From a virus, in IMG/VR virus record IMGVR_UViG_3300035701_000034, positions 1-60,540 of that record: DNA of 60,540 nt; one strand, given 5' to 3'. The notes beneath the pieces were generated by a model. It did not search any database, was not told where the DNA came from, and was given only the letters and a program-made list of their open reading frames with translations. The position numbers and the translations under genes were made by a program. Within the stretch, counting starts at the first letter, position 1. Every line of letters begins with the position of its first letter. This document shows, piece after piece, positions 2,032-26,400 of this stretch.

Positions 2032-2042
2032 GAAAAGTTCCA

Positions 2043-2441
2043 ATGAAGTCAATAAACATTAGATTTCCCTTAGAGGATGACGTAGAAAAGAATAGTCTTT
2101 TTATGCTTAACTATGTAACAAAAAATGCATTAGTTTCAGATTTAAAGTTATTGTTGTTGACTAAAAAGGGTCAAAGATATTATATGCCTGATTATGGAAC
2201 TAATTTAGAAAAGTTTATTTTTCAGCCAGAAGATGAAATTACGGAAGATGAAATTATAACTGATTTAAGAGATTCTGTAAGAGAATATATGCCAGAAATT
2301 GCAATAACGAGTGTTAATTTCTACACAAAACAAGATGCTGGTTACGAAGATATGGAGGATAATGAGATTAGGGTTTCAATAAAATTCACATATTCTGATG
2401 ATGTGTTCTCTGATAATGGAACGGTAGATATTACATTTTAA
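2043..2441 (+). CDS. baseplate wedge protein, gp25/gpW family
   Basis: This 132-residue protein matches the pattern of the T4 gp25 / P2 gpW family, which forms part of the baseplate wedge next to the sheath initiation site. Visible family traits are an N-terminal region leading to LLLLTKKGQRYYMPDYGTNL, a conserved Gly-Thr-x-Leu turn, and a helical segment (TDLRDSVREYMPEIAI) followed by a beta-rich C-terminus. Family members are typically 110-140 residues, so it is full length. It is first in the baseplate operon and is followed 12 bp later by a gp6/J-like gene, the usual order. Confidence 0.85.
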   Translation: MKSINIRFPLEDDVEKNSLFMLNYVTKNALVSDLKLLLLTKKGQRYYMPDYGTNLEKFIFQPEDEITEDEIITDLRDSVREYMPEIAITSVNFYTKQDAGYEDMEDNEIRVSIKFTYSDDVFSDNGTVDITF

Positions 2442-2453
2442 ACTTTAAACAAT

Positions 2454-4313
2454 ATGGCAACAGACAATCCAATATCATATAACAAGAGAACATTTAGCGA
2501 ACTTAGAGATGAGTTAATAACGTTAATAAAAAGTACATATCCTGATACATTTCAAGACTTTACGGATTCAAGTGTTGGGTCATTACTCTTAGATTTGAAT
2601 GCTGGTATAGGTAATAACCTTTCAATTAATACAGATAGAGCCTTTCAAGAAACACAATTAGAGTTTGCACAACAAAATGATTCAATATTAAATATTGCTA
2701 AAAATTTAGGATTTAATATCCCGGGAAAACGTTCATCTGTTACTGTTGTTGATTTTACAGTACAAGTACCAGCAAATGGGGATAGACCTAACGAACAATA
2801 TCTCCCAATATTATCATCTGGTGCTCAAGTCGTTGGTGGTGGGAAAGTATTTGAAACATCAAGTGTAATAGATTGGAATAACAATTTTAGTAATCTTGGT
2901 GATCCAAATAAAACAGAACTTCCTTTATATGATAGTAATGGAGTTATTCAAGGGTATACAATAACTAAAAGAGAGGTTGTAATAAATGGGGCAACAAGTA
3001 TTTTTAAAAAAATTATTAAGGATACTGAAAGTCAGCCTTTTTATCAATTAACACTTCCAGATAATAATGTTATTGAAATTGTTAGTGTCATTGCTTTGGC
3101 AGGAACTAATTTTTCTGGTAATCCACCAGAAAGTGAATTTTTGAATTCTGATAACATATATTATGAAGTGGATTATCTATCACAGCAAAGAGTATTTGTT
3201 GATGATCCTAATTCAGGATCAAACACATCTACTACAGGTAATACATCTATGAAAGCTGGTAAGTGGATTAGTGTAAAAAAGAAATTTATAAAAGAATTTA
3301 CAAGTAAAGGGTTGTGTGTACTCACCTTTGGTGGTGGTAATGGTGATCTAGATTTTTTTCTAGACGGTTTTGCTAAAGCAGGTGTTACTAATCAGATGTT
3401 TCTTAATAATTATTTACTCAACACATCGTTGGGTGAACAATTAAAAAAGGACTTTACGTTATTTGTGAAATATAGAACTGGTGGTGGAACGAGTTCAAAT
3501 ATAGGTGCAAATGTATTAACAGCATTAGGTAATGTGGATATGAAAGTTAATGGCCCACGTGCTGATTTTAATAATGTTGTGTCAAGAAGCTTAAAAGTAA
3601 ATAATCCAATAGCTGCAATTGGTGGAAATGATGGATTATCGATTAACCAAATACGTAATTTAATAAAATATAACTTTAGCTCTCAAGAAAGAGATGTGAC
3701 TATAAATGATTATTTATTTCAAGTTTTTAAAATGCCGGGTAAATATGGTTCTCCATTTAGAGCGAATGCATTCAAAGAAAATAATAAGATCGTAATATCA
3801 ATTGTTGGGTTGGGTAGTGATGGTAAATTAAATAATACTAGTAATAGTTTATTAAAGGAAAATATTGGAGAGTATGTTAGTAACTATCGAATGGTTAACG
3901 ATTATGTTGAAATAAGAGATGGGAAGATATTTAATCTAGCGTTTGATTTAGATTTATTCGTGAGTGAATCAGTTAATCAAGGAGAATTAGCAAATAATGT
4001 TATTAACACAGTTGCTACTTATTTTGATGTAAATAGTGAACAAATGAATGAAGATATATTTCTAGGTGATCTTCAAAATAGTATTAATAACATTAATGGT
4101 GTTATAAATATTTTAGGACTTAAAGCATATAACAAAGTTGGAAACGGATATTCATTGAATCAAATAGAGCAGCCATACGTTAATGAAACGACAAGAGAGA
4201 TTCAATTGATAAATAACACAGTATATAGTACAGAGGATTCGTTATTTGAAATAAAATTTCCTGATCGTGATATTAAATTATTACTTAGAAAAAAAACTGA
4301 TCTGTTTGTGTAA
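2454..4313 (+). CDS. baseplate wedge protein, gp6/baseplate J-like
   Basis: A 619-residue protein placed directly after the gp25-like gene, as baseplate J (P2) and gp6 (T4) usually are. The N-terminus (residues about 10-95: TFSELRDELITLIKSTYPD, then FTDSSVGSLLLDLNAGIG) has the family pattern in which a helical start leads to a DxSxGSxLLD-type motif. The middle is beta-rich and contains a Gly-rich loop (FGGGNGDLDFFLDG). The C-terminal part holds another helical segment that typically dimerises in the wedge. The stop overlaps the next ATG by one base. Confidence 0.8.
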   Translation: MATDNPISYNKRTFSELRDELITLIKSTYPDTFQDFTDSSVGSLLLDLNAGIGNNLSINTDRAFQETQLEFAQQNDSILNIAKNLGFNIPGKRSSVTVVDFTVQVPANGDRPNEQYLPILSSGAQVVGGGKVFETSSVIDWNNNFSNLGDPNKTELPLYDSNGVIQGYTITKREVVINGATSIFKKIIKDTESQPFYQLTLPDNNVIEIVSVIALAGTNFSGNPPESEFLNSDNIYYEVDYLSQQRVFVDDPNSGSNTSTTGNTSMKAGKWISVKKKFIKEFTSKGLCVLTFGGGNGDLDFFLDGFAKAGVTNQMFLNNYLLNTSLGEQLKKDFTLFVKYRTGGGTSSNIGANVLTALGNVDMKVNGPRADFNNVVSRSLKVNNPIAAIGGNDGLSINQIRNLIKYNFSSQERDVTINDYLFQVFKMPGKYGSPFRANAFKENNKIVISIVGLGSDGKLNNTSNSLLKENIGEYVSNYRMVNDYVEIRDGKIFNLAFDLDLFVSESVNQGELANNVINTVATYFDVNSEQMNEDIFLGDLQNSINNINGVINILGLKAYNKVGNGYSLNQIEQPYVNETTREIQLINNTVYSTEDSLFEIKFPDRDIKLLLRKKTDLFV

Positions 4314-5692
4314 TGATAAAAAGATCAATTCCATATGTAAGTGGTGATACAAGCAATTTAACTATTTTGCTTAATGCACAATCTAAAGATTTGGGTTTTT
4401 ATGATACAGACACCACAAGTAGTGTTGAATATATATCTACAACATCATTAAGAAATGCGTCCATAGATAATTATAGTGGAAATGCTCGATTTCTTTGTAA
4501 TGGTCACGGATTAAACGTAAATGATTTAATATATATTAATTCAAATGCAACTGTACAACAAAAAAACGCATCGATAGATAATTATAATGGAAATGCTCGT
4601 TTTAATTATACGACACATGGATTGATTGTGAATGATTTAATAAATATTGTTTCTAATACTCCACAGTATAATGGTGAGTTTTATGTAAATTTTGGAAATG
4701 TAGATCAACTTTTAATACGAAGAACACCAACAGGTGCATATACCCAGTATATCGGTGATGCATCTATCACATGGAATAAGGTTTATTCTACCTATTATCC
4801 TTATGATGGTTTATTTTATGTAAATTTTGGGAATGCAGATCAACTTTTAATTAGAAGAACATCAACAGGAGCATATACCCAGTATATCGGTGATGCATCA
4901 ATTACTTGGAGTAAAGTGGTATTGAGTAATGGTACGAATAGCGGATCATTAGCAGGATATACATTTAATTATGCTGTAACAGGAATTTCATCAAATAGAC
5001 TTGAAGAATTGCGTAAATATAGTACAAGTTCTATATATTCTGATAAATATTTTATAGGTGGATCACCAACTGTAGATGGTTTAGACTTGACGTATAGTGG
5101 AACACAAACTAATAGTGGTTCTACAATTGTTCTACAATATTACATTGGTGGAATTAAATATTTAAATGTTACACCAGTAAATTATACAACTACTTTACCA
5201 TTAAAGGAAGCTTGGATAGATAATTATAATGGAAATGCTCGTTTTAATTATGCTGCACATGGATTAGCAGTAAATAATTTAATATACATTGTTTCTAGTC
5301 ATGTTGAATATAATGGTTTGTTTTACGTAAATTTTGGAAATGCGGATCAACTTTTAATACGAAGAACAGTGAGTGGTGCATATACACAATACGTAGGTAA
5401 TTCGACAATTAATTGGAGTAATGTTATATTGAAAACGGCAACGGCAACAACTACAACATTTTCATTTAACAGTGTTGGTTTATCATCCCTCAATTTCGAT
5501 AATTTACCAATTCTTAAATTAGAAGAAAAGCAAAATATGTGTGAAAATCCATTTATTAAGTCTGATGTATTTATACTGAGACAAGAAATACCAGTATTTG
5601 AAAAGTCCATAAGATTAAGAGGGGTGGGTAATTTAAGCGAAGTGGTCAATTATGCTGGTGGTAATTATTTTAAGATATTTAACAATACATAA
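4313..5692 (+). CDS. tail/baseplate protein with internal repeats
   Basis: This 459-residue beta-rich protein carries imperfect internal repeats. One module (DNYNGNARFNY...HGL.VNDLI) occurs at about residues 48, 86 and 300; a second (FYVNFGN.DQLLIRRT..GAYTQY) occurs at about 122, 167 and 337. DNA copies are also very similar, indicating recent duplication. The C-terminus (SIRLRGVGNL...) is different and probably folds separately. The position after gp6-like suggests a baseplate or tail-tip protein, but no family is recognised. It overlaps both neighbours by one base. Confidence 0.7.
   Translation: MIKRSIPYVSGDTSNLTILLNAQSKDLGFYDTDTTSSVEYISTTSLRNASIDNYSGNARFLCNGHGLNVNDLIYINSNATVQQKNASIDNYNGNARFNYTTHGLIVNDLINIVSNTPQYNGEFYVNFGNVDQLLIRRTPTGAYTQYIGDASITWNKVYSTYYPYDGLFYVNFGNADQLLIRRTSTGAYTQYIGDASITWSKVVLSNGTNSGSLAGYTFNYAVTGISSNRLEELRKYSTSSIYSDKYFIGGSPTVDGLDLTYSGTQTNSGSTIVLQYYIGGIKYLNVTPVNYTTTLPLKEAWIDNYNGNARFNYAAHGLAVNNLIYIVSSHVEYNGLFYVNFGNADQLLIRRTVSGAYTQYVGNSTINWSNVILKTATATTTTFSFNSVGLSSLNFDNLPILKLEEKQNMCENPFIKSDVFILRQEIPVFEKSIRLRGVGNLSEVVNYAGGNYFKIFNNT
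4453..5415 (+). repeat. dispersed internal repeats within a tail gene
   Basis: Near-identical DNA segments recur within the gene. The unit containing gataattataatggaaatg begins near 4453, 4565 and 5209. The unit containing gtaaattttggaaatg begins near 4679, 4813 and 5320. High base-level similarity as well as protein similarity points to duplication or recombination. Confidence 0.8.
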
Positions 5693-5796
5693 TGTCAAAT
5701 CGAATAACATTTGATAATAATAAAATTATAAGAGATTATAATTTAGGATATAGTTGCAGAAAAATTGCAAAAATGAACAAATGTTCAAAAAATTAG
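5692..5796 (+). CDS. 34-residue helix-turn-helix fragment
   Basis: The ATG at 5692 overlaps the preceding stop (taATG), giving a 34-residue product whose C-terminal half (IIRDYNLGYSCRKIAKM) reads like a helix-turn-helix of the sort found in homing endonucleases and resolvases (I..YN.G.S.RKIAK). It stops where a longer protein would continue the recognition helix. It is either a genuine tiny protein or the remnant of a mobile endonuclease gene. The region otherwise has no reading frame before 5818. Confidence 0.4.
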   Translation: MSNRITFDNNKIIRDYNLGYSCRKIAKMNKCSKN

Positions 5797-5817
5797 ATTA
5801 TCATAAACAATATAATT

Positions 5818-6756
5818 GTGGCTATTGGAGTATATGGAAATATTAGACCTGCAGATGTAAATATCACAGATTTGGATGTGTACTATACATTTACACCTAG
5901 TAGAAGTGTTGTGTCAAACGCATTTTTTAGACTTACTTCTACTGATGTATTAACAGAAATTAAGATACCTCAAGCGGAGCAAAATAGTGGAGAAGAAAAT
6001 CTTCTTGAAGGAATTTACAATTTGAAATTACCTGCAACAGTATTTAATCAAGTTGGAATATACACCATATTTATTCGTTCAAAAGTTATTAGAGTGAAAT
6101 TAGATGGAACATCTCCACTCACTATTACAGATTGTGGAGTATTATCATCACTTCCATCAATAAAAGGAATTGTTTTGAATTCAAACGATCTTCCCGTTAA
6201 TTTAAGATCGAATAATGCCTTGCAGGGTTATAAGATTGAATATGTTAATACAGATGGAACTAAATTAAGAAATGTTGTTAGATATGTTACAACATCAAAT
6301 AAGGCTATTCCTGTTACTGAAAATATTGGTAATACTAGTCAAACTGCAATAAGATATAGATTTGACGATAGTGGTAATTTATTATTTCTACAGGTTACAC
6401 CTAGTAGTGCTTCAAATGTAAAACCAAATGTAAATCCTTTTATAGGAAAACCGGGACAACATATTTTACTTTCAAACACGAACATTAAACCAGAAGTAAT
6501 AGAAATAGAAATGGTGGAAAATACTATAGATACTGTCGTCAACTTAGTTGGTGGTGAACAGATTAAAGATGTTGATAACGGTATTTTGACTAATTATGAT
6601 AAAAACAGAAATATCATAAAACAATTTGATTTATTTGAATTAAAAGACGATTTCACAAATACTTCCTTATTTGAAGTTAAACAAAAGAGAACTACTATTG
6701 ATAATAGTCAGACTTTTGATAATGTCCTTAAAGATGTAGCAGGAAATAACGCATAA
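5818..6756 (+). CDS. virion protein, probable baseplate/tail component
   Basis: A 312-residue protein starting at GTG (5818); no in-frame ATG lies near. The first 100 residues look like an immunoglobulin-like beta sandwich (ITDLDVYYTFTPSRS, GIYTIFIRSKVIRVKL). The middle is beta-rich and the last 60 residues are helical and charged. It sits between the repeat-containing tail gene and a giant baseplate/tail gene, and is followed by a hairpin. No specific family is recognised. Confidence 0.75.
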   Translation: MAIGVYGNIRPADVNITDLDVYYTFTPSRSVVSNAFFRLTSTDVLTEIKIPQAEQNSGEENLLEGIYNLKLPATVFNQVGIYTIFIRSKVIRVKLDGTSPLTITDCGVLSSLPSIKGIVLNSNDLPVNLRSNNALQGYKIEYVNTDGTKLRNVVRYVTTSNKAIPVTENIGNTSQTAIRYRFDDSGNLLFLQVTPSSASNVKPNVNPFIGKPGQHILLSNTNIKPEVIEIEMVENTIDTVVNLVGGEQIKDVDNGILTNYDKNRNIIKQFDLFELKDDFTNTSLFEVKQKRTTIDNSQTFDNVLKDVAGNNA

Positions 6757-6808: not shown

Positions 6809-9800
6809 TTGGCTAAAGTTAAAACAATAAATAGACGACAAGGTTCTGATCTTATAGGTGCAAATTTTAGAAATGCTGCTTCTGAGACCATATTTACATT
6901 CGGAAGATTTACAGTAGATACAAATTTCAGTTCAAGAAAAGTTCGTAATTATTCAAATGAATTAAGTTCATTTGTAACCCCCATTACTCTTCAAACACTT
7001 AACATAAGTAAAGAAGATTCTGATCAAATTTTTAATTTCAATCAAAATGTTGTACTTAATATAAACAAATCAGATTTAACGTCTTATGCTAGATTTGGTT
7101 CGATGAGCGAAATTCTGCGTGTATCAATTGAGAATATTATAATACAATTCCCTTCGAGTATATATGTAACATATCAAATTTCATCATTTTCAAATTTGAT
7201 GAGTGTTACAAATTATTTTTATGATATAACTAAAGATAGTTCCGTATTAACAATACCATATCCTGCATTAGTTAATAAATTTGGTATTGTGTTAAATCAA
7301 TTCAATAATCAATTACCTCAAAATGATCCTTTAAGAAATTTAAATATTGCATTTCCAGAGTACGTTCTTTGGAGAGAGGAAAATTCAACTGGTCATACAT
7401 TTGAAATTCTTGGATATACAGGATATACTGCAACGTACCAATATATAAACCTATCAATAAAAGGTAATCCATTCCCTGAATTATCAGGATCAACACAAGG
7501 AAAATTTAATTATCATATTAAACCAAAACCTATTCATTACAATAGATTTAAAAAGAATTTATCAACTTTGGAGTCTTATATAATTAATGATAAAATAGCT
7601 AAAGGGTATAAGACAGAATTTCAAACACCAACAGAACTTGAAGATGGTAGTGTTTCATATAATAATCAAATAATTATTTGGCCGTCTGCTGATGGATATA
7701 ATATAGATATTAGTGGCTACGATTATGATGTATTCCTAAATCTACTTGGTGGCATAGGGCAATTATATGATCAGTTCAAATCTGATCTAATCGCAAGATT
7801 ATTGGTTCCAGAATCTCTTCTAAAAAATGATTTAACGGAAGATTCTAAACTTCAAAAATTATTAAGATTGTATGGAACTACCTTTGATAATATAAAAGTT
7901 TTCATTGATGCGTTAGTTACCATTAATAAACTTTCTTATAATAAAAATAAAAACATACCAGATATATTAGTAAAAAATTTAGCAAAGACCTTGGGTTGGG
8001 AAGGGGTAACATTAGTTCAAGAAGATGATTTGTTAGAAAGTTTTTTTTCTACAGAAGATAAAAAATCGACTGACCTTCTACCACCAGAAGTTGATGTTGA
8101 ATTGTGGAGAAGAATATTGATTAATACCAATCATCTTTTTAAATCGAAGGGTACTAGAGAAGCAATGAAAAGTATACTATTGATGGTTGGTATACCAGAA
8201 CCTTTTATTGATATAACAGAATATGTTTATACTGTTAAAGGTAAAATTGATCCTAATACGGTAACTATAAGCCTTGCTGATTTACCTTGTGCTTCTTTAC
8301 CATATAATTCTTCTGGATACCCAATAGCCCCTAAAGAAAATAAATTCTATTATTTTCAAGTTAGTGGAAATACTGATTCAGGGCAAGCATATCTTGACGT
8401 ATTCAGAACTGTGGGATTTAATTTAAATCGTGTTATAGATAATAAGAAATCTTGGGTATATGGTGGTTCGGTAGCAAGAATAGATGCAACTACACCAACT
8501 TATTTACAGGAAGATAGTGCATTAATTATAAACACCAAAGAAGTTGATGTATCGTTAGATATTGCAAGAGGAATTGAATATGATATGTATTCATATAATG
8601 TTAAACATAACTTCCCATTATCTAGTACTGGGGTTACGAAACCATTTTTGTATATCAACATTCCATTTACATATGGATCGTCTGCCTCTATATTTACAGT
8701 GCCAGAAGTACCACAAGGTGATATTCAAGTTAGTTTTAATGGAGTCACATTAGTTAAAGGTTTTACCTCTGGTGATGTTAATGCTGACTATCATATCAAT
8801 ACATTAAACACAAAAGAAGTGATACTCAACAGTAGTACAGCACAAAGCTATACTAATGGATTTAAAGACATTATAACACTTACGTATGCGAAGGATCAAC
8901 AAAGTGGTGGAACATATAGTCAAATACAATATATAGTTACGAAAGTAACAACAAATCCTGATGGAATTGTAATACCAATAATTGATACGACATTGGGTGA
9001 AATTCAATTGGTTGTAAATGGAGTTACAATGACAAAAAGTAATTCATTATTTACGGGTGATTATATTATTAATCCAGCAAATCCACATGAAATACTGGTT
9101 GTAAACAATGATTTAAAAAATTACTTAATTGCGCATCCTGTAGTTGTAATTAGTTATATAAAATCAAACGTTTTTGAACCTGTTTTAAAAAAATCAGAAG
9201 TCCATAGAATTGATAGTTTTTCGGGAACTAAATTTTTCTATAATTCAGGTATTGGAAAATATGTATATGTATTGGACTATGAACCACCAAGTGTGGTGGC
9301 TGTTAAAATTATAGTGAATGGTATTACACTACAAAATGGAAGTGATTTTATTCTTAATTCATCTAATAAAAGACAAGTATTATTTAATACGACAGCTTTA
9401 AATTTAGGATATATCATCAATGCTTTTTATGTAACTGATGATGGGTCAATATCTAATCCCATTAATTTTGGAAATTTTATTCTTCCGAACATATCTCAAA
9501 TTAGTTTTTTACAATACCTAGATATTATTAACAATAGATTGATTAATGTGAAGAACAGAAAAACATTGTCTGATCATAATGGGGGTCTTTACCCTACAGT
9601 TGAGAGATTATATGATGAATACTTAAAAAGAGGATATGCTGTTAATCCTTTATTAGTGAGCAATGCATATACTTTTGGAAATGTATATCCATTCATGAAA
9701 AAATTCAATTCTTTTTTTCATAAATTCATTGAAGAATTATTGGGTAGTACAATAATATTAAAAAAGGGTGGCATCTTAATTAGAAATACTGCTTTTACTA

Positions 9801-10597
9801 AACAAAAATTTACATATAGAAGAGGTGTCAATTTCGATCCATCATTAAAATATTATGGTAATGATGGTTCTGAATTTAAAAAAAGAGTTCCAACTGCAAC
9901 AATAGATTTTTTGTGGAGTGGTTTAACTTGTGTCGTTGTTGGGACACCATCTACAACTACTGCACCCGCAACTACTGCACCTGCAACTACTGCACCTGCA
10001 ACTACTGCACCTGCAACTACTGCACCTGTAACTACTGCACCACCACCACGAATTACATATTACGGATATTTCTTAAATGGGTTACCTAATACATGGAGTT
10101 TTGATTTTAATGATGGTGGTGGATCACATATTACACAAAGTTTAACACTTGCACCTGATTCATTTACAGGTAATGCAATACTTCATGGTAGTAGTTTTAC
10201 AGGAACTATCACAAAATTGACTAATGGTGGGTTGGTTGAATATGGACTTACTACTACATTTTATAAAAACGGTATTTTCTTTCATCAGACCAATAGAAGT
10301 GCAGGTGCTTCGGCTACTGATACTGCTACTTTTACTACTTTAGTTAATGGTGATGTTATTAGTATTGAAGTTTATGAAAATTTACCACCACCACCAGCAC
10401 CAAATTGTTTAACATATCATGCAGTTAATAATAGTGATATTATTGCTTTTGTATTTGAATATCAAGATTGCTTAGGATTTACTCAAACTAGCAATATTCC
10501 TGCTGGAGGTAATAGTGTTTTTTGTGCTTATGAAGGTTCATTTGTTGCTGGAACTGGAACTGGATCAATAAATGTAATACCCAATGTTTTTTGTTAA
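6809..10597 (+). CDS. giant baseplate/tail protein with adhesin-like C-terminus
   Basis: A 1262-residue protein starting at TTG (6809). Residues about 310-480 contain a helical segment resembling P2 gpI-type tail proteins (ELWRRILINTNHLFKSKGTREAMKSILLMVGI). Residues 500-1020 are beta-rich modules, repeating an IxVNGxxL pattern. Residues 1049-1077 are five to six copies of a TTAPA repeat. After that comes a roughly 120-residue beta module ending YENLPPPP, and a terminal module with paired Cys (NNSDI...EYQDC) that recurs in the gene at 14660. The front part probably anchors in the baseplate and the tail end probably contacts the host or is displayed. Confidence 0.8.
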   Translation: MAKVKTINRRQGSDLIGANFRNAASETIFTFGRFTVDTNFSSRKVRNYSNELSSFVTPITLQTLNISKEDSDQIFNFNQNVVLNINKSDLTSYARFGSMSEILRVSIENIIIQFPSSIYVTYQISSFSNLMSVTNYFYDITKDSSVLTIPYPALVNKFGIVLNQFNNQLPQNDPLRNLNIAFPEYVLWREENSTGHTFEILGYTGYTATYQYINLSIKGNPFPELSGSTQGKFNYHIKPKPIHYNRFKKNLSTLESYIINDKIAKGYKTEFQTPTELEDGSVSYNNQIIIWPSADGYNIDISGYDYDVFLNLLGGIGQLYDQFKSDLIARLLVPESLLKNDLTEDSKLQKLLRLYGTTFDNIKVFIDALVTINKLSYNKNKNIPDILVKNLAKTLGWEGVTLVQEDDLLESFFSTEDKKSTDLLPPEVDVELWRRILINTNHLFKSKGTREAMKSILLMVGIPEPFIDITEYVYTVKGKIDPNTVTISLADLPCASLPYNSSGYPIAPKENKFYYFQVSGNTDSGQAYLDVFRTVGFNLNRVIDNKKSWVYGGSVARIDATTPTYLQEDSALIINTKEVDVSLDIARGIEYDMYSYNVKHNFPLSSTGVTKPFLYINIPFTYGSSASIFTVPEVPQGDIQVSFNGVTLVKGFTSGDVNADYHINTLNTKEVILNSSTAQSYTNGFKDIITLTYAKDQQSGGTYSQIQYIVTKVTTNPDGIVIPIIDTTLGEIQLVVNGVTMTKSNSLFTGDYIINPANPHEILVVNNDLKNYLIAHPVVVISYIKSNVFEPVLKKSEVHRIDSFSGTKFFYNSGIGKYVYVLDYEPPSVVAVKIIVNGITLQNGSDFILNSSNKRQVLFNTTALNLGYIINAFYVTDDGSISNPINFGNFILPNISQISFLQYLDIINNRLINVKNRKTLSDHNGGLYPTVERLYDEYLKRGYAVNPLLVSNAYTFGNVYPFMKKFNSFFHKFIEELLGSTIILKKGGILIRNTAFTKQKFTYRRGVNFDPSLKYYGNDGSEFKKRVPTATIDFLWSGLTCVVVGTPSTTTAPATTAPATTAPATTAPATTAPVTTAPPPRITYYGYFLNGLPNTWSFDFNDGGGSHITQSLTLAPDSFTGNAILHGSSFTGTITKLTNGGLVEYGLTTTFYKNGIFFHQTNRSAGASATDTATFTTLVNGDVISIEVYENLPPPPAPNCLTYHAVNNSDIIAFVFEYQDCLGFTQTSNIPAGGNSVFCAYEGSFVAGTGTGSINVIPNVFC
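9956..10040 (+). repeat. 15-bp tandem repeat encoding TTAPA linker
   Basis: Five full copies of a 15-bp unit (actactgcacctgca, minor variants) and one partial copy. Each encodes Thr-Thr-Ala-Pro-Ala, giving a mucin-like linker between the structural body and the C-terminal adhesin modules. Copy number is likely to vary by replication slippage. Confidence 0.9.
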
Positions 10598-10624
10598 TTA
10601 TATTATATGAATTATTAAAATAAA

Positions 10625-12046
10625 ATGGCAGTATCTGGAGAATATAGAAAACAAACAATAAAAAAGACATTAACAATTAATGGCGTTAATTTCTATGGAA
10701 ATTCATATGTGAATAAAACTATAACACTTAAAGATATTAGAAATTCTTTTAGTGGGATTACAACTACAGGAAATATTCATGTTTCATATCCATCGATTAC
10801 GAATAGCGTGTTTGCGACATTATCTTCTGTAGAATACGTAACAAGAAGAGATGCTTTGCTTAGTATTGAACCAGATATGACATCATCACAATTATCAGTA
10901 ATGAAATCTAGTTCTACTGGAGTCGATCTTGTGGCATGTCCTATTATTGCAGTATCAACAACTCAACCCATAACAACAGCAGCAGTAACAACAGCAGCAG
11001 TAACAACTGCAACACCAACAACCGCAGTACCAATAACATTTTGGGCTTTCGGTTTAGGTGGGAAAGTTTTTAAAACAATAAATGGAGGTGTTACATGGGT
11101 GGATAAATCAATATCTTCTGGTGTTGACCCAAATATTAATAGTCTTGTTGTTGTATATAACGGATGTTTCTGTGGCAATGTGGGGTACTTATTAGCTATA
11201 ACTAATTCTCCTACTGTTTTAGTTAAATTATATAAAACTATTGATGGTGGTGATAGTTGGGTTAGTCTTACTGTACCTAGTCAAAATGTTGTTTCTTTAA
11301 TAACTATTGATGCTAATAATGTTATTTTAGGTACGTATTTTACTGAAACCGTAGTATATAAATCAAGTAATGGAGGTAATTTATTTACATCAACATTTAA
11401 GGGTGGTATCAGCTTTACTAATTATAGAATGGATTTTGCAACATCATCAACGGGATATTCAACTGATGTATTTCCAAATAATAGTATACGTGTTGCAAAA
11501 ACAACAAATGGTGGTTCTTTTATAGATGTTACACCACCGCTATTAACTTCATTTGTTATGGATGTATCATTTGTTGGTGATGTTGGATATATAGCTAATG
11601 AAAATAACGTATGGAAAACAAGTAATGGTGGATCATCTTGGAATAAATTAGGATATATTTTACCGGGAAATAATCCAGCTACTCCAGATAATATTAATAG
11701 TATATACGTTTATTTCATAAAACAATTAAATAATGGTGTTGTTATTGCTGCGGGAATAAATAATAGTGCAACAGCAATTAAAATAGCAAGATCAGTTGAT
11801 GGTGGATTAAATTGGGTAACATCATCATTTGGCATAGCTGATGGATACTCATCCACAAATTATTATGCTACTCAATTAGATTTTTATGATAATAATAACG
11901 GTATATTAGTATTATCTAATGCTGGTACTAGTAGTTCTGGTGGTGTATTAAGAACTAGTGACGGTGGATTGAATTGGAGTTTATCACAGACTGGTTCTGC
12001 AACACCTTTGAAAGCAATATCACGTTCAAGAGCACCAATACTTTAA
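10625..12046 (+). CDS. tail fibre protein with Asp-box beta-propeller
   Basis: A 473-residue protein in three parts. Residues 1-113 form a short virion-attachment-like domain. Residues 116-136 are a TTAAV-type linker. The rest is a beta-propeller with about seven Asp-box/BNR-like motifs of the form S.DGG..W: TINGGVTW, TIDGGDSW, SSNGGNLF, TTNGGSFI, TSNGGSSW, SVDGGLNW and TSDGGLNW. Such propellers occur in sialidases and in YCF48-like proteins; no catalytic residues can be assigned, so carbohydrate binding is a reasonable guess. It follows the giant tail gene by 27 bp and is followed by glycosyltransferases after 1 bp. Confidence 0.8.
   Translation: MAVSGEYRKQTIKKTLTINGVNFYGNSYVNKTITLKDIRNSFSGITTTGNIHVSYPSITNSVFATLSSVEYVTRRDALLSIEPDMTSSQLSVMKSSSTGVDLVACPIIAVSTTQPITTAAVTTAAVTTATPTTAVPITFWAFGLGGKVFKTINGGVTWVDKSISSGVDPNINSLVVVYNGCFCGNVGYLLAITNSPTVLVKLYKTIDGGDSWVSLTVPSQNVVSLITIDANNVILGTYFTETVVYKSSNGGNLFTSTFKGGISFTNYRMDFATSSTGYSTDVFPNNSIRVAKTTNGGSFIDVTPPLLTSFVMDVSFVGDVGYIANENNVWKTSNGGSSWNKLGYILPGNNPATPDNINSIYVYFIKQLNNGVVIAAGINNSATAIKIARSVDGGLNWVTSSFGIADGYSSTNYYATQLDFYDNNNGILVLSNAGTSSSGGVLRTSDGGLNWSLSQTGSATPLKAISRSRAPIL
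10972..11031 (+). repeat. degenerate 15-bp repeat encoding T/A/V linker
   Basis: Two exact 15-bp units (aacaacagcagcagt) and two diverged ones encode a Thr/Ala/Val/Pro linker between the N-terminal domain and the propeller. It is the same kind of linker as at 9956 and 16256 but with different codons. Confidence 0.8.
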
Positions 12047-12047
12047 T

Positions 12048-12944
12048 ATGAAATTTTTATCCGCACAATCTGATAATGATTACCATATATGGCAGTTACA
12101 AGTACAGATGTTCAATTTTAGAAAATTTGGAATTGAAGATAAGGCAATTATATTACTTGGATATAATGTAAAAATAGGTGTTAGTGTTAAAGCACTTGAA
12201 TTTAAAGATAATACAAGTGCTATGGTTATTTTCTTACCTGATGAAAGAGACTTGTCTGATAGATTGTATACACAAAGTATTAGACCTCATTTAATTAAAC
12301 AATTATATTTACACCATCCCCATTTATTGGAAAACAGGACTATATTAATACATGATTGTCAAATTCTTTTTACCAAATTACCGAGTGTAAAGAAGTTAAT
12401 TACAAAAAGAAAAATTTATGTTAGTCAATTTCATGTTGACCCGATTGATCAAAGATTATTAAAAGAGATGTATAAAATGGTGGGAATATCATCATCGAGA
12501 GTGGATAAAAATAAGAACTTAATTGGTGGTATTCAATATTTATTCAATTCTTCTCTCAATTTTTCATATGATTTTTGGAATAAAATAGAAAATGATTCAA
12601 ACAGTTTATATAAATTGATGCTTGTAAATAGCGAACGAGTTAATCCTTCTTGGTCTGCGGAAATATGGGCTATGTTATGGAATATTTGGTTGGTTGGTAT
12701 TGATACTGAGATAAATAGTGAATTATCTTTTACGACCGGAAATACTCCAATCGAAGAATTAGAAAATAAGAACATATATTATAATGATGATCCGTTAGAA
12801 GATCAAACAAAAAAAATATTTAAAAGAAAAGATTATATTAAAGAAACACCCTTTTCGAGTGATTTATCATATGTTGATCCTTTATTTTGTTCTTCATTTT
12901 ATGCAAAAGAAATAATTGAAACTGGTAATTATTTAAATTTATGA
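12048..12944 (+). CDS. glycosyltransferase-like protein, probably inactive paralogue
   Basis: This 298-residue protein aligns along its length with the N-terminal domain of the next gene product: MKFLSAQSDNDYHIWQLQVQ versus MKFISAQPDSMYFIWQLELQ, then FL/IPD.RD, IRPH, and SWSAEIWAMLW versus SWTADMWALLW. The position of the metal-binding D-x-D in the partner (DSD) is D-C-Q here (residues 103-105), so catalysis may be lost. The (Y/F)xWQ start and (A/S)E(M/I)W region remind me of plant peptidyl Ser/Hyp O-glycosyltransferases. It lies 1 bp after a fibre gene and overlaps the next gene by 4 bp. Confidence 0.65.
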   Translation: MKFLSAQSDNDYHIWQLQVQMFNFRKFGIEDKAIILLGYNVKIGVSVKALEFKDNTSAMVIFLPDERDLSDRLYTQSIRPHLIKQLYLHHPHLLENRTILIHDCQILFTKLPSVKKLITKRKIYVSQFHVDPIDQRLLKEMYKMVGISSSRVDKNKNLIGGIQYLFNSSLNFSYDFWNKIENDSNSLYKLMLVNSERVNPSWSAEIWAMLWNIWLVGIDTEINSELSFTTGNTPIEELENKNIYYNDDPLEDQTKKIFKRKDYIKETPFSSDLSYVDPLFCSSFYAKEIIETGNYLNL

Positions 12945-14653
12945 AATTTATATCTGCACAACCAGATTCTATGTATTTCATTTGGCAATTAGAACTGCAG
13001 ATGTATAATTTTAGAAATTTGGGTATTGAAAAAGATGCTATAATATTATTCTCTTTTAATGAAGAAGAGGGAATTAACCCCAATGCACTGAAATTTAGTT
13101 ATGAAACAGATGCTGTTGTTATTTTTATTCCTGATAAAAGAGATAGTTCTTTAAAAAATTACATATCGACAATTAGACCACATATTTTAAAATCATTTTT
13201 TGAATTATATGCCTCTCAAATAAGTCATGGGCATGATATTTTTTATCATGACTCGGATATATTATTTCGTTTATTACCTGATTTTAAGGTTCTTTCAAAT
13301 GAAGGAAAAATAGCATTAAGTGATACAATATCATACATAGGCTCTGCATATATAAAAAGTAAGGGAGAGGGATTGCTAGAAGAAATGTGTGCATCAATTA
13401 ATATTGATCCAATTTTAGTTGAAAAAAATAACGATAATTCTGGTGGTGCTCAATATTTCATACCTAAAAATATTCCATTGACATATTCCTTTTGGGATAA
13501 AGTAGAAAAGGATTCTCAAACATTATATACATTGATGAATGATACATCTTCTAAATATAATCCTTCCCATCCCATTCAATCATGGACTGCGGATATGTGG
13601 GCATTATTATGGAGTTTTTGGAATTTAGGTTATGAAACAGCTATAAGTAAAGAGTTGAGTTTTTCGTGGCCAACATATGATATTGGTGAATGGGAGAAAC
13701 ATAACATATATCACAATGCTGGTGTTACTCCAGATAGAAAGGATTTATTTTATAAAGGTGCGTATACGACAACTTCACCAATTAATTTATTACATAAAAA
13801 CGTAAATGATAAATTTTGTTCATTCAAGTATGTTGAAGTTATGAAGAATTTTTCAAAGGAAAAGTTTAAAACAGAAAAAATCTCATGTATCATGTGTACA
13901 TACGGTAGATTTAATATGGTTGAAAGAAGTTTATCTTTTTTCATGAATCAAGATTTTTTAAATAAAGAATTGATCATATTTAATACTGCAGAAAAACATC
14001 TTGAATTAGATAAATCTTTAATGAATGAAAATATCATTATAGTTAATAATAGCATCTCATATATTACTGGGTTACCATATACTAATGTTGGGGATGTTAG
14101 AAGAGATGCATTAACACATGCAAATGGAGCAATATATTCTTGTTGGGATGATGATGATTTTTTTATGCCATATCATTTATCTCAATCATATGCTAACCTT
14201 ATTGGTTCGAATAAAAAAGCATGGAAACCAAAATATTCACTATGGAGTCAGGATGGTGGACGAACATTTAAAAGAGACCGTAACAATTTTGAGGCAAGTA
14301 TTTTAGTTTATATTGATTATTTGTTTTTCGAAGAAAAAACTGGTGATGAACATATTGGGTGGTTATACAAATTACAAGATGAAGGTCAATTAGATGAGAG
14401 TGTTGATGTTCAACCCTTGGAATCATATTGTTATGTTTGGGGTGATATACTAGCACCACACAAACAGTCTGCTCAAATTACTGACCCTAATAATTTTAAT
14501 AATCATAAAATACATTCAATTGATTTTGGTGAAAGGGCATTAACACATATTGATGTGTCTAACTATTATTACAATGTTTGGTCATTTGAAAAGAAAGACC
14601 TTGTATACGAGAAACTCAAAATATATATTTCAAAGTATTTATCATTAAATTGA
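12941..14653 (+). CDS. two-domain glycosyltransferase
   Basis: A 570-residue fusion. Residues 1-290 resemble peptidyl O-glycosyltransferase-type domains (YFIWQ near the start, HDSDILF with D-x-D at about 104-106, GGAQYF, then SWTADMWALLWSF). Residues about 310-570 form a GT-A/GT2-like domain (ISCIMCTYGRFNMVERSL, then DVRRDALTHANGAIYSCWDDDD, acidic motif at about 403-406, and a later His). The first domain is paralogous to the upstream gene. Its place inside the fibre operon, next to Thr-rich linkers, suggests it glycosylates virion proteins; sugar and acceptor are unknown. Confidence 0.75.
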   Translation: MKFISAQPDSMYFIWQLELQMYNFRNLGIEKDAIILFSFNEEEGINPNALKFSYETDAVVIFIPDKRDSSLKNYISTIRPHILKSFFELYASQISHGHDIFYHDSDILFRLLPDFKVLSNEGKIALSDTISYIGSAYIKSKGEGLLEEMCASINIDPILVEKNNDNSGGAQYFIPKNIPLTYSFWDKVEKDSQTLYTLMNDTSSKYNPSHPIQSWTADMWALLWSFWNLGYETAISKELSFSWPTYDIGEWEKHNIYHNAGVTPDRKDLFYKGAYTTTSPINLLHKNVNDKFCSFKYVEVMKNFSKEKFKTEKISCIMCTYGRFNMVERSLSFFMNQDFLNKELIIFNTAEKHLELDKSLMNENIIIVNNSISYITGLPYTNVGDVRRDALTHANGAIYSCWDDDDFFMPYHLSQSYANLIGSNKKAWKPKYSLWSQDGGRTFKRDRNNFEASILVYIDYLFFEEKTGDEHIGWLYKLQDEGQLDESVDVQPLESYCYVWGDILAPHKQSAQITDPNNFNNHKIHSIDFGERALTHIDVSNYYYNVWSFEKKDLVYEKLKIYISKYLSLN

Positions 14654-14659
14654 TCTTAA

Positions 14660-17158
14660 ATGTCATTTATTCTTAAAAATAATCCAACAATTATCAATAT
14701 AAAGCTGACTAGTGTCGGAAGACAATTGCTTTCCAAAGGTAAATTGAATATGACTAAATGGGCTATTGGTGATAGTGAAATTGATTATTCTTTTAGTAAG
14801 AAAATATCTTTTGATCCATTTATGGAGAATATTTTAAGACCTAAAGATCAAAATCCAAAATTTTCATCATTTATTCTACAAAACGGTACTGATTTAAATA
14901 GTAAATATACTTCTCTTCCAACGGTTGTATCTAACACTAATGTGGTTGCTAATACAGCAACTCTTAGAGGATTTTTCACTAAAGATACTACTAAATTATT
15001 GGTCGATGCATTAAGAATGAAGCAAGCTGATATGCAAGTCTTTATATCAACACTTACAGGTGGTACTATCTTAAAAATAAGAAAATCACCAACATATCTT
15101 TCAAATCCAACAGAACCAATTGTTGGAGATTATATATTAGTCAGATGGGCAAACCCATTAATTCTTGGTGGTACTGTAACTCCAAGTCTTGTTTTAGCAA
15201 CACCACATATTTGGTATAAAATTGAATCTATACGATCTGGAAAATTAAGTACAGATAATTTGATCATTGGTGTAGATAAACAACTACCTAATTTCGGTGC
15301 ACTTGGCGGTACTATCGCTTCTGGTGTATTTTTATATCCAAATAGTAATAATAGATCGGTAAGTGGTGATTCGATTCAATCGTATTATAGCACACCATAT
15401 GTTTCTGATTTTATTAGTGATAGTGTTATTTCGTTTTTTGAAAATTGTATATGTCCAGTAAGAGATGTACCAGTTTGGAATATGTCAATAGTATTCACAG
15501 AAGAAATTGCGGGTGTTAAATCAACAGATAGAAATATTTCTCAATATTATACAAAGGGATATGGTGGTTTTGTACAATACATTGAAAGAATTTCACCGAA
15601 AGTGAAAAATGTTGGTATTATTCATTTCACTAATAGTTCACCATCTAATCATTATGGTGAGGGGTTTTTATTGAAAACACCAATACTTGACTTACCTACA
15701 ATTATGTGGCATCATGAAACTGGTGGTACAATGGGGTTAAGATTAACTTCTTACGGTTCTGAAAAAATTTTAGATACTTTAAATATTGTTTATTATGATT
15801 TAGCCGATAAATACGGAAATATTGTTGGTAAGATTTTTAACGATTTAAAAATTTTCTTGATTGAAGATCAAGAATTGTTGTTTGCAATGTCATATAAAAG
15901 CAATAGAAGCTGGACTTTACCAAGACCAAGTGCTGGATTTAATCTTCAATTGAACAACTGTAGTGGTGTTTGTTTATTAAAACCACCAACAATTATAAAA
16001 ACACAAGAAACATCTTTTGGTGCAAAAAATGCAACAATAACCATTACTCCGAATGGTGGTCAGGGAGATATTTTCTATTCTATTGACGGTGGATTGACAT
16101 ATAAAACCACACCAACATTTACTGGATTAGGTTCTGGTACTTATAATGTTGTTGTATTAGACACCGTTATTCAAAATTGTAGTATATCAACTGTAGTAAC
16201 GATTGCAGCAGTAACAACAACTCAACCACCAATTACAACAATAGCAGGAACAACTGCAGTAGCGACAACTGCAGCAGTAACAACTGCAGCAGTAACAACT
16301 GCAGCAGTAACAACTGCAGCAGTAACAACTCTAGCAGTGACAACACCAGCACCAACATTTTTAGTTGCTGGAAAATTCTTAAATGGATTACCTAATTCAT
16401 GGAAATTTAATTTCAATGATTTCGGAGGATCAGTACAAACAAATATTTTAACTACGGCTCCTAGTCAATTTGGTAATATCACAAAAACTCTACATGGAAA
16501 TACTGTTAATGGTACTGTAACCAAATTGACTAATGGTGGATTGGTTGAAAACGGTCTTACAGTCACATTCTATAAAAACGGTATTTTTGTGGGTCAATCA
16601 TCAGGTCTTGTTGATGGTAGTGCTGGAATTGCTGCATTTAATTTTACAGCATTTAATGGTGATGTACTTTCTATGGAAGTTTATGAAAACTTACCACCAC
16701 CACCACCACCACCTTGTATAGCATATGACTTTGTAAATAACAGCGACATTTCTACTATGACTGTACAGTATCAAGATTGTGCTGGATTTACAACTACTCT
16801 CGTCATATTAGCAGGTGGTTTAGCATCAGGTATTTGTTGTTTAGTAGGTTCAATATCGATTGTTGATGGTGCAGGAACTATAACTGAAAACCCAACTCTT
16901 CAATTCTTATGTAATGGTACAACAACAACTGCAGCACCAGTAACAACCTTACCACCACCACCAGCCTTGGGTTGTGATCAGTATCGTATTGTGGAAAATA
17001 GCGATTCTAATCCTTTATTAATACAATATTTGGATTGCTTTGGTGGTACACAAAATTTCACAATTAATCCGGGTGGAACAATTACATTATGTGCACAGAC
17101 TGATACTATAATATTTATTTCTGGAACAGGTGGAATAACTCTTTTAGCAGCATGTTAA
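14660..17158 (+). CDS. tail fibre/adhesin with SprB-like and Thr-rich regions
   Basis: An 832-residue protein. The N-terminal part (LTSVGRQLLSKGKLNMTKWAIGDSE) has the character of a fibre-attachment domain, and residues to about 440 are beta-rich. Residues about 450-515 (ITPNGGQGDIFYSIDGG, then GSGTYNVVVLDT) resemble SprB repeats of Bacteroidota gliding adhesins. Residues 521-561 are a TTAAV linker. Residues 568-685 are homologous to the C-terminal module of the gene at 6809, followed by two copies of a Cys-containing NSD...YxDC module separated by another T/A/P linker. A receptor-binding role is likely. Confidence 0.75.
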   Translation: MSFILKNNPTIINIKLTSVGRQLLSKGKLNMTKWAIGDSEIDYSFSKKISFDPFMENILRPKDQNPKFSSFILQNGTDLNSKYTSLPTVVSNTNVVANTATLRGFFTKDTTKLLVDALRMKQADMQVFISTLTGGTILKIRKSPTYLSNPTEPIVGDYILVRWANPLILGGTVTPSLVLATPHIWYKIESIRSGKLSTDNLIIGVDKQLPNFGALGGTIASGVFLYPNSNNRSVSGDSIQSYYSTPYVSDFISDSVISFFENCICPVRDVPVWNMSIVFTEEIAGVKSTDRNISQYYTKGYGGFVQYIERISPKVKNVGIIHFTNSSPSNHYGEGFLLKTPILDLPTIMWHHETGGTMGLRLTSYGSEKILDTLNIVYYDLADKYGNIVGKIFNDLKIFLIEDQELLFAMSYKSNRSWTLPRPSAGFNLQLNNCSGVCLLKPPTIIKTQETSFGAKNATITITPNGGQGDIFYSIDGGLTYKTTPTFTGLGSGTYNVVVLDTVIQNCSISTVVTIAAVTTTQPPITTIAGTTAVATTAAVTTAAVTTAAVTTAAVTTLAVTTPAPTFLVAGKFLNGLPNSWKFNFNDFGGSVQTNILTTAPSQFGNITKTLHGNTVNGTVTKLTNGGLVENGLTVTFYKNGIFVGQSSGLVDGSAGIAAFNFTAFNGDVLSMEVYENLPPPPPPPCIAYDFVNNSDISTMTVQYQDCAGFTTTLVILAGGLASGICCLVGSISIVDGAGTITENPTLQFLCNGTTTTAAPVTTLPPPPALGCDQYRIVENSDSNPLLIQYLDCFGGTQNFTINPGGTITLCAQTDTIIFISGTGGITLLAAC
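16256..16344 (+). repeat. 15-bp tandem repeat encoding TTAAV linker
   Basis: Four exact copies of gcagcagtaacaact at 16271-16330 flanked by diverged copies. They encode a Thr-Thr-Ala-Ala-Val linker. Exact identity of four copies indicates recent expansion or homogenisation. Confidence 0.9.
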
Positions 17159-23445: not shown

Positions 23446-26400
23446 ATGGCAGAAAAAAGTGCATTAAGACTCCTTCCGGGGAAAGATGCTTTATTAGAGT
23501 ATGTATCTGGAGTATATAAAGCTAAAACTTTCGTAGAACGTAATGGATTAATGTATAAAGCATTAGTCGATACTTCGTCTACATTTATAACATCGGAATG
23601 GGAAGTAGTTAATGGTGATTTACGTGATTTAAGAGTAAATTTCATCAGAGATCGTAATGCATTAACGGGAAATACTCCAACGACTGGTACAACTGGTTAT
23701 CACATACCTATTGTTGATAATACTAATGTTTTAGTACTAAATGCAACTGCAGACCCTTTAGTTGGATCAAATAAATTTGCTAGATACAATTACAATAAAA
23801 CAACGGCTAAATGGTTATTATTACAAGTCAGTACTGGTAGTACATCAAGTAATGTTAGTAATTATACTCTTTTAACAAACAGACCAAACATAATCAGTGG
23901 TATAACAGTTACAGCAGGTGCTGGATTAACTGGTGGTGGTAGTTTTAGCGGTACAGTTCCACCATCAACAGGTACAATTACCTTACAGCATTTAGATACA
24001 TCATCTCAAGATAGTTTAAATCCATCAGGATTTACGTATGTACAAAAATTAAAAGTAGATACATATGGTCATGTTACAGGTGCTACAACTTCATTATGGA
24101 TACATCCAGATACTTCTAGTCAAGCTAATATAACTAATACGGGTCTTACTTACATTCAAAGTATTCAAGTGGATAGTGTTGGACATTTAATTGGAATGAG
24201 TAGTGGAACATGGATACATCCTGATAACTCAACTCAAGGTTCTGTAATCAATACAGGAACAACATTTATACAAAGTATACAATTAGATTCGGTAGGTCAT
24301 ATAACAGGAATAAACAGTGCTGTTGCACCAGCTAGTATCAGTGGTGTAAATTTTAATGTTGCTGGTAATAGCGGTGGTTCTATTGCAATGCCTAATGGAG
24401 GAACATTGCAAATAACTGGAGGAACAAATATAAATACAGTAAGTACTGTACATGGTTTAAATGTTGGATTAAGAATTAATATGACACCTGCAGGTTCTAA
24501 TGGCCAAGTACAGGTTAATAATAGTGGAGTATTAGGTGCTGGTTCTGGATTGTTATATGGATCAAATATATTAACAACACCTAGTTTAATAATTTCGACA
24601 ACATCTGCATCAGGTAATTCAAGTAATTCAATTTTAGTAAGAGATACAGCAACAGGTGTTGTTAATGAAATTTCACAATCATTTATTAGAACTGCAATAG
24701 CAGGATCAAATACACAATTACAATATAATAGCAACGGTATTCTCGGTGCATCATCAAATTTAACATTTACAGGTAATACAACATTAGTAAGTGGTGCTGT
24801 TGCAATAACGACAACACCTAGTGTTGGTAGTAGTGATGATGTATTAACATGGAATTCAACAAGTAAGAAAATTACTAAGATAACTCAAACTTCTATTGTT
24901 ACGGGAAAATTAGACACTTCCACATTCAATACATATTCTGGAAATACTTCTGCTATAATTAGTTCGTTGTCTTCAACGAAGTTGAATATATCATCATTTA
25001 ATGCATATTCAGGAGTAACAGCAACAAATATTGCAAATAGATTGTTAACTACTTCATTTAATTTCTATTCTGGTCTTACTGCTGCATTCATTAATACTAA
25101 ATTAGCAATATCATCATTTAATATTTACTCTGGTAATACTGTTAATTCAATCAATAGTAAATTAGCAACATCGTCATTTAATTTTTATACTGGTACTACA
25201 GAACCATCGATTTATTTAGGTAAGATACCTTTCAATAATTATTCTGCTACTACTATAAGTAACATTAATAATAAGTTATCTACGAGTGCGTTTAATTTTT
25301 ATTCTGGAATCACAGCAACTAGATTAAGTAGTTTAGAATCTAATGACGTTACAGGTGCAACTTCATTAGGAAATCACACTATATTAGGAACCAAATTAGG
25401 AAAAAATTTACGATTCAAAGGATTGGCTGCTGGTACAAATATTGTATTAACACCAACATCAACAGGAATAACAATTAATGCTCCAACGATATTTATAACA
25501 CCATATGCGATAGCAAATAGTGTTCAATTTAATGGTAGTGGTATATTTAGTGGATCGACTGGTCTTACATTAACATTAGGATTGTTAAATGCACCAAACT
25601 CAATTCAACTTTCAAGAAATACAATTGGTGGTGATAGAACTATAGCTGCAGAAAGTAGTACAATTAATAATACGTTTAGAATTTTTAATAGAGTTGGTAA
25701 AATATCTATAAGTGGTGGTACTAGTTCCACAGCAACTGCTGCATCTGATGTAACTATTCAAGCAGGTTTAAATTCATCTACAGGCCCATCAGGTAATTTA
25801 ATTCTTCTTGGTGGCGGTGCATCTTTTGGTTCTGGTACGGGTACTGGAGGTAATGTAAGTATCATAGGTGGAACTAACAATAGTGCATCTGCAGCAGCAG
25901 GTAGTGTAACTATTCAAGGTGGTGGTAATTCTTCAACTGGTCAACAAGGAACTGTAACTATTCAAGCAACAACTGGTATTGGGTCAGGTGGTGGTATAAA
26001 TATTATTGCAGGTGGATCATCAACTGGCCCTAGTGGTAATATAGTAATTAATGGTGGGCTTTCACAAAATGCTCTTCCGGGTAGTAATATTAACATACTA
26101 GCTGGTCAGAACAATTCAACTGGTATTGGTGGTTCTATTTCTTTGCAAGGTGGTAGTAATGGTAGCACTAATGCTGCTGGTAATATAAATATTTTTGGTG
26201 GACAAACTAATGGTGCTGGTCTTGGAGGTAATGTATATATCAGAGGGGGTATAAATGGTAGTTCACTAATTAGAGGACAAGTTATTATTGTTGGTAGTTC
26301 TAGCACATCAATTTCTAATGGTGTGATAATTAGTGGAGATAGTGCAACAGGTTCTGGTGGTAATGTCCTTATTCAAGGAGGTATTAATAATACTGCTTCT

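Follow-up and report, generated by a model that had tools for sequence, protein, structure and literature searches.

The window analysed here is the whole 60,540-base virus record IMGVR_UViG_3300035701_000034, which is probably a fragment. It carries two adjacent glycosyltransferase (GT) genes, open reading frames (ORFs) 12048-12944 and 12941-14653, among three genes whose products contain Thr-rich linkers (Table 1), and the relation between these enzymes and the linkers is the subject of this report. An earlier interpretation of the letters of this DNA (the sequence-only reading) had described three large genes with 15-bp repeats coding for TTAPA or TTAAV linkers. Such tandem repeats are indeed present at 9954-10041, 10971-11038 and 16243-16357, one in each of ORFs 6809-10597, 10625-12046 and 14660-17158, with repeat units identical up to 97%, and no other ORF of the window contains a T/A/P/V linker. 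The two GT genes, which that reading had placed between the linker genes at a uniform spacing of 1-4 bp, lie between the second and third of them, and the spacing is 1 bp (12046/12048), a 4-bp overlap (12941/12944) and 6 bp (14653/14660). By an arithmetic estimate, the chance that three linker genes among about 55 would be the genes closest to the GT pair is about 1e-4. Because the module comes after a phrog_219 baseplate wedge gene, the linker genes encode tail or baseplate proteins. The name fibre, which the same reading had given to all three products, is only a loose, putative label, because ORF 10625-12046 looks by eye like an Asp-box (BNR-like) propeller-type protein, with a weak, below-cut-off BNR match only in its ortholog in another phage contig (L011, described below). 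ORF 6809-10597 had no match in Pfam and PHROG searches. It shares its linker and a C-terminal module of about 185 residues with ORF 14660 (54% identity over 184 residues, 10040-10594 vs 16352-17155).

Table 1. Features of the tail module and its glycosyltransferase genes in the window
Feature	Position	Strand	Basis
Baseplate wedge subunit	2454..4313	+	phrog_219, E 1e-22
Large tail/baseplate-associated (putative fibre) protein, 1262 aa, Thr-rich linker near C-terminus	6809..10597	+	ORF; syntenic L011 ortholog
Linker 1, TTAPA repeats, 12 Thr in 30 residues, proposed O-glycosylation acceptor	9956..10045	+	encodes TTAPATTAPATTAPATTAPATTAPVTTAPP
C-terminal module that follows linker 1, with a homolog after linker 3	10040..10594	+	sequence identity
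473-aa protein with Asp-box-like repeats, Thr-rich linker between N-terminal domain and repeats	10625..12046	+	ORF; repeats by eye
Linker 2, 11 Thr in 25 residues	10958..11032	+	encodes TTQPITTAAVTTAAVTTATPTTAVP
phrog_4417 GT paralog, probably catalytically dead	12048..12944	+	phrog_4417 match; metal-site residues replaced
Intact phrog_4417 GT-A domain (residues 1-309), proposed peptide-Thr O-glycosyltransferase	12941..13867	+	phrog_4417, AlphaFold, Foldseek
C-terminal GT2-like domain, fusion in the window only, proposed glycan-extending enzyme	13877..14653	+	PF00535, SpsA and WcaA/PglI-like matches
Large tail/fibre protein (putative), 832 aa, linker 3 and C-terminal modules	14660..17158	+	ORF; L105 relative
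Linker 3, TTAAV repeats, 16 Thr in 40 residues	16235..16354	+	encodes TTIAGTTAVATTAAVTTAAVTTAAVTTAAVTTLAVTTPAP

Both GT genes match phrog_4417 over its full length (ORF 12941, E 2.3e-64, profile positions 1-291 of 293; ORF 12048, E 2.4e-38, positions 1-290 of 293), a family annotated as "unknown function" in PHROGs v4. ORF 12941 is a fusion of phrog_4417 (residues 1-305) and a GT2-like domain (residues 313-425). Structure prediction and a Foldseek search, as the sequence-only reading had proposed, place the phrog_4417 domain among GT-A enzymes. The AlphaFold2 model of residues 1-309, built from an alignment of 62 sequences, has a predicted local distance difference test score (pLDDT) of 94.9 and a predicted template modelling score (pTM) of 0.92. 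Foldseek gave 98 matches in the PDB at E <= 1e-3, the leading listed ones being GT-A enzymes with a TMq of about 0.4-0.5. The best matches are the catalytic domain of UGGT, Skp1 galactosyltransferase, glycogenin, LH3 and LgtC (E 1e-6 to 1e-4), which include protein-modifying GTs. A PDB sequence search with the family profile gave no match. D104, D106 and H258 of ORF 12941 (nucleotides 13250-13252, 13256-13258 and 13712-13714), which we take by analogy with LgtC to be metal ligands, are conserved in 174 of 174, 172 of 174 and 172 of 173 sequences among 175 distinct members. The motifs YFIWQ and ADMWALLW, noted in the sequence-only reading, occur in this form in ORF 12941, and ORF 12048 has YHIWQ and AEIWAMLW instead; the Trp residues of both motifs are nearly invariant across the family.

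The family is matched by 72 annotated phage records, mostly siphophages of Enterococcus, Lactobacillus, Lactococcus and Staphylococcus, together with Chryseobacterium and Arcanobacterium phages. In the annotated siphophages the GT gene usually lies directly behind capsid or tail genes. More than 400 stretches of IMG/VR also match the family; a direct IMG/VR search with the full window protein gave no match, and an alignment-based search was needed to find relatives. Bacterial genomes contain 35 loci, nearly all in named Gram-positive (Bacillota) isolates and most of them prophage-like by their neighbours. A GT supplied by the host was considered and dropped: only 1 of 300 genomes of a Bacillota sample matched, and that one is the centre genome itself, so that the GT is regarded as a phage gene.

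In phages of Gram-positive bacteria, the GT lies within the head and tail gene module, and its presence goes together with poly-Thr tags on virion proteins. Homologs of the tagged proteins were gathered with the protein body only, excluding the tag, and tag and GT were then scored separately, which avoids choosing the expected outcome. After de-duplication of loci longer than 9 kb, 43 distinct GT loci were compared with 54 loci that have homologous capsid or tail proteins and no GT. A C-terminal poly-Thr tag on the major capsid, major tail or small head protein (e.g. TTTTTTKPTTTTTTTQA) is present at 42 of the 43 GT loci and at 2 of the 54 others (Fisher p 7e-24, relatedness among loci being ignored), which bears out, for these phages, the co-occurrence expected by the earlier reading. 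Counted by genes, 90 of 690 are tagged at GT loci against 2 of 856 at loci without GT, and 38 of these 90 tagged genes lie directly upstream of the GT. Three loci (L132, L137 and L360) with proteins ending in TTTTTTGV or TTTTTTTGL are untagged under a stricter threshold and are counted here as tagged. The single GT locus with no C-terminal tag, that of Chryseobacterium phage MA9V-3 (L001), has long internal Thr/Ser (T/S) linkers in two genes, one immediately preceding the GT and another three places upstream. The tagged proteins of one locus (L119) are a capsid protein (PF05065) and a tail-tube protein (PF04630). In Lactococcus phage bIL285, the prophage of L. lactis IL1403, the GT is orf45, and the C-terminus of the tail protein orf50 reads ...TTTTTTTTTRHD.

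The tag and the GT are gained and lost together. In tail family A5, 15 of 15 proteins with a GT and 0 of 49 without it are tagged, and the tree of the family contains at least 7 GT changes and at least 7 tag changes, always together and with no discordant row. Likewise, 13 of 13 proteins with a GT and 0 of 18 without it are tagged in capsid family A4. The corresponding figures for the Enterococcus phiFL tail family are 3 of 3 and 0 of 11, and the capsid is also tagged in those three. A search for the GT elsewhere in 36 control records found none, and the same search detected it in 9 of 9 positives. A candidate case of joint decay (L381), with a frameshifted capsid tag and a broken GT, was rejected as an assembly error in which the tag is present, because the record, apart from frameshifts in many genes, is almost identical to L113. 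In the record L307, which has no GT, the small head protein encoded at 5489-5806 carries a ten-Thr tag; it may be a relic or a target of another enzyme.

Tags occur on two or three unrelated virion proteins within one phage, some of them six genes away from the GT, and the tags within one phage resemble each other more than those of different phages do. When the capsid tag of a phage is paired with its tail tag, the last three residues are identical in 17 of 32 pairs, compared with 3.3 expected and a maximum of 9 in 10,000 shuffles. All four Thr codons are mixed in the Thr tracts, which argues that the tracts are not a product of DNA slippage alone and that the protein sequence is kept. In the AlphaFold model of a tagged major tail protein (pLDDT 72, moderate), the tag residues 212-227 have values below 50; this is expected for a disordered tail and adds little. 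These properties bear on an alternative in which the Thr-rich stretches are flexible spacers or slippage-prone low-complexity sequence, and in which the GT modifies a host wall polymer, the capsule or DNA and shares the module by linkage. Tail proteins often contain low-complexity linkers, the near-identical 15-bp units of the window would fit slippage, and DNA and the host surface are known targets of phage GTs (PMC12619734). However, this alternative is at odds with the near-perfect match between presence and absence of GT and tag in three protein families, with the concordant tree changes, with tags on unrelated proteins distant from the GT, with the mixed codons and with the resemblance among the tags of one phage, and we consider it unlikely.

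In the environmental branch to which the window belongs, the link between GT and Thr is strong but less complete. A strongly T/S-rich gene is found at 31 of 48 distinct loci, and T/S-rich genes account for 31 of 178 genes within two genes of the GT vs 3 of 215 at least seven genes away (p 6e-9). The 371-kb jumbo-phage contig L011 and the 340-kb L105 are syntenic with the window. The L011 gene at 2037-5663 is the syntenic ortholog of ORF 6809-10597, and L011 has poly-Thr at the positions of the TTAPA and TTAAV linkers, including a stretch of about 21 Thr in the ortholog of ORF 10625; Thr is retained while other residues change. The L011 ortholog of ORF 14660 stops before linker 3, and ORF 14660-17158 has a 47% relative in L105. 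A distant relative of the GT (20% identity, TM 0.75) is found in Lactobacillus phage LP65 (L386), where it adjoins gp050 and gp051 (5225-6107), both with the C-terminal repeat TTTETQTQTQ; gp051 is annotated as a structural virion protein detected by 2-D gel and mass spectrometry. Elsewhere in the window, a 60-bp repeat lies at 25054-25199 within a 1310-aa ORF (23446-27378).

The two GT genes of the window do not appear to be equivalent. The DXD motif and the C-terminal His are present in ORF 12941 and absent from ORF 12048, which alone among the 175 distinct members has Gln at position 106 together with Tyr at position 258 and which has also lost the SDT and HNAG motifs. Nearly all loci hold one GT copy, and tandem copies occur in the window and in L011, where both copies, including the ortholog of ORF 12048, are intact. 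Because ORF 12048 is the sole member with these replacements while its L011 ortholog is intact, it is probably either a copy that lost its activity recently or a pseudoenzyme partner. The sequence-only reading had assigned O-glycosylation of the Thr/Ser/Pro linkers in the phage's own fibres to both enzymes. The co-occurrence and the predicted GT-A fold support that assignment in general, but ORF 12048 probably takes no catalytic part in it. A tentative possibility, compatible with glycosylation by ORF 12941, is that ORF 12048 is a pseudoenzyme subunit that forms a heterodimer with ORF 12941 and aids acceptor binding. Its reading frame is kept and overlaps that of ORF 12941 by 4 bp, its score against the family profile is still 271 bits, its motif residues have been lost selectively, and tandem copies also exist in L011. 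However, both L011 copies are intact, nearly all other loci do with a single copy, and recent decay explains the data equally well.

The C-terminal half of ORF 12941 matches PF00535 with E 1.1e-4 (22.7 bits, just under the cut-off of 23.3), SpsA with E 0.003 and WcaA/PglI-like models with E of about 1e-5, the WcaA and PglI matches being well below the cut-offs of those models. Another family member (L029, 8001-9557) is extended at its C-terminus by about 200 residues, which matched no Pfam family. In L012, the stretch 8906-10890 behind the GT encodes a GT6-family (ABO-type) enzyme together with two further proteins, one methyltransferase-like and one GT2-like. In this phage contig, these genes may form a cassette for glycan building, which would be consistent with a longer glycan. 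The fused GT2-like domain and the GT6 and GT2-like genes of L012 show that extending enzymes exist, and they would also fit a scheme in which the first sugar comes from a host enzyme and is only extended by the phage GT. Virion assembly takes place in the cytoplasm, which counts against such a scheme. A general O-glycosylation system does exist in Bacteroidota, but it targets non-cytoplasmic proteins at Asp-Ser/Thr (PMC12871550), and none of the three window linkers contains Asp. In addition, the same pairing of GT and tag recurs across hosts from other phyla, and at most loci no recurrent GT besides phrog_4417 was noticed. Initiation by a host enzyme is very unlikely.

Taken together, the data indicate that the phrog_4417 GT most likely O-glycosylates Thr-rich tags and linkers on the phage's own virion proteins. 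In the proposed mechanism, the phrog_4417 domain would be a cytoplasmic, nucleotide-sugar-dependent GT-A enzyme, encoded in the virion module, that moves a sugar onto Thr (and Ser) of low-complexity Thr-rich peptides. In phages of Gram-positive hosts, the acceptors would be the C-terminal poly-Thr tags on small head proteins and on the major proteins of capsid and tail; in the window and in related large phages, they would be internal Thr-rich linkers of tail or fibre proteins. TTAPATTAPA, TTAAVTTAAV and TTTTTTKPTTTTTTT are candidate acceptor peptides. The active enzyme of the window would be ORF 12941-14653, its fused GT2-like domain probably adding a second sugar, and ORF 12048-12944 would be a degenerate copy. 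We infer the acceptor residue, the sugar, the enzyme activity and the benefit to the phage, which may be shielding, stability or adsorption.

Several observations weigh against this proposal. The support for virion O-glycosylation is comparative, coming from sequences and models, and co-occurrence leaves the modified residue unspecified. Only 3 of the 7 changes on the A5 tree fall on strongly supported branches, and tags are present at two loci without GT, L307 (10 Thr, small head protein) and L355 (weaker). Thr makes up only about 40% of the window linkers, which sets them apart from the poly-Thr tags, and in the environmental branch 8 of the 48 distinct loci have no gene above 11/20 T/S, some of them on short contigs.

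On a broader level, it is likely that tag-directed O-glycosylation is widespread in phages, with one GT-A family, unrelated in sequence to known phage virion GTs, acting on portable Thr-rich tags of unrelated virion proteins in siphophages, a myovirus and large environmental phages, and with GT and tag gained and lost together. Such a system would give a testable function to an unknown-function family in the long-studied lactic phages bIL285, phiFL1A and LP65, and would account for the unusual poly-Thr C-termini of the capsid and tail proteins in these phages. Virion glycosylation has so far been described in mycobacteriophages, and the present data suggest that it is common among phages that infect Gram-positive bacteria and probably among those of Bacteroidota. 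Should the tag prove portable, Thr-specific O-glycosylation and its role for the virion could be studied in a simple bacterial system.

The proposed system shares features with several known ones. The plant HPAT enzymes (GT95, PF23452) and the peptidyl-serine galactosyltransferases (GT96) also act on peptide acceptors, which are rich in hydroxyproline or Ser there. GT95 is predicted to be GT-A-like and GT96 to have a novel fold (PMC8476585). The kinship with plant HPAT and SERGT enzymes that the sequence-only reading had suggested is not borne out in that form: PF23452, the Pfam family with the most matching members and matched over nearly its full length in ORF 12048, reached E <= 1 in 4 of 62 members (best E 0.0035), with 13.4 bits for ORF 12048 and 16.4 bits for the L011 record against a cut-off of 23.9. 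Because all scores are below the curated cut-off, the resemblance is a weak hint that cannot be used as evidence. The general O-glycosylation system of Bacteroidota likewise places O-linked sugars on Ser/Thr. However, it transfers a lipid-linked glycan as a block to non-cytoplasmic proteins (PMC12871550) and needs an Asp-Ser/Thr-hydrophobic sequon, which the Asp-free window linkers cannot provide. A further parallel is the glycosylation of Ser/Thr-rich repeats in bacterial adhesins, where low-complexity Ser/Thr-rich stretches are O-glycosylated stepwise in the cytoplasm (PMC12871550), although a secreted host adhesin is modified by host enzymes there and virion proteins are the proposed targets here.

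Among open-licence PMC papers, a scope that leaves most subscription papers and preprints outside, no description of poly-Thr or Thr-rich tags paired with phage GTs was found. The nearest precedent is the glycosylation of the C-termini of major capsid and tail-tube proteins by phage GTs in mycobacteriophages Che8, Corndog and Myrna, as cited from Freeman et al. 2023 in PMC12619734 and PMC12363180. As in those phages, the GTs are phage-encoded, and the capsid and tail C-termini modified there are the ones that carry Thr tags in phrog_4417 phages. In contrast, Che8 gp108-gp110 do not match the phrog_4417 profile, the capsid and tail C-termini of Che8 have no Thr tag, and its GT genes lie at the right genome end, far from the structural module. 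The window in turn differs from the rest of the phrog_4417 family by its GT2-like fusion and by a paralog without the metal ligands. Virion glycosylation by mycobacteriophage GTs was known already, and what appears to be new is a GT family of unknown function that is tied to Thr-rich tags on virion proteins.

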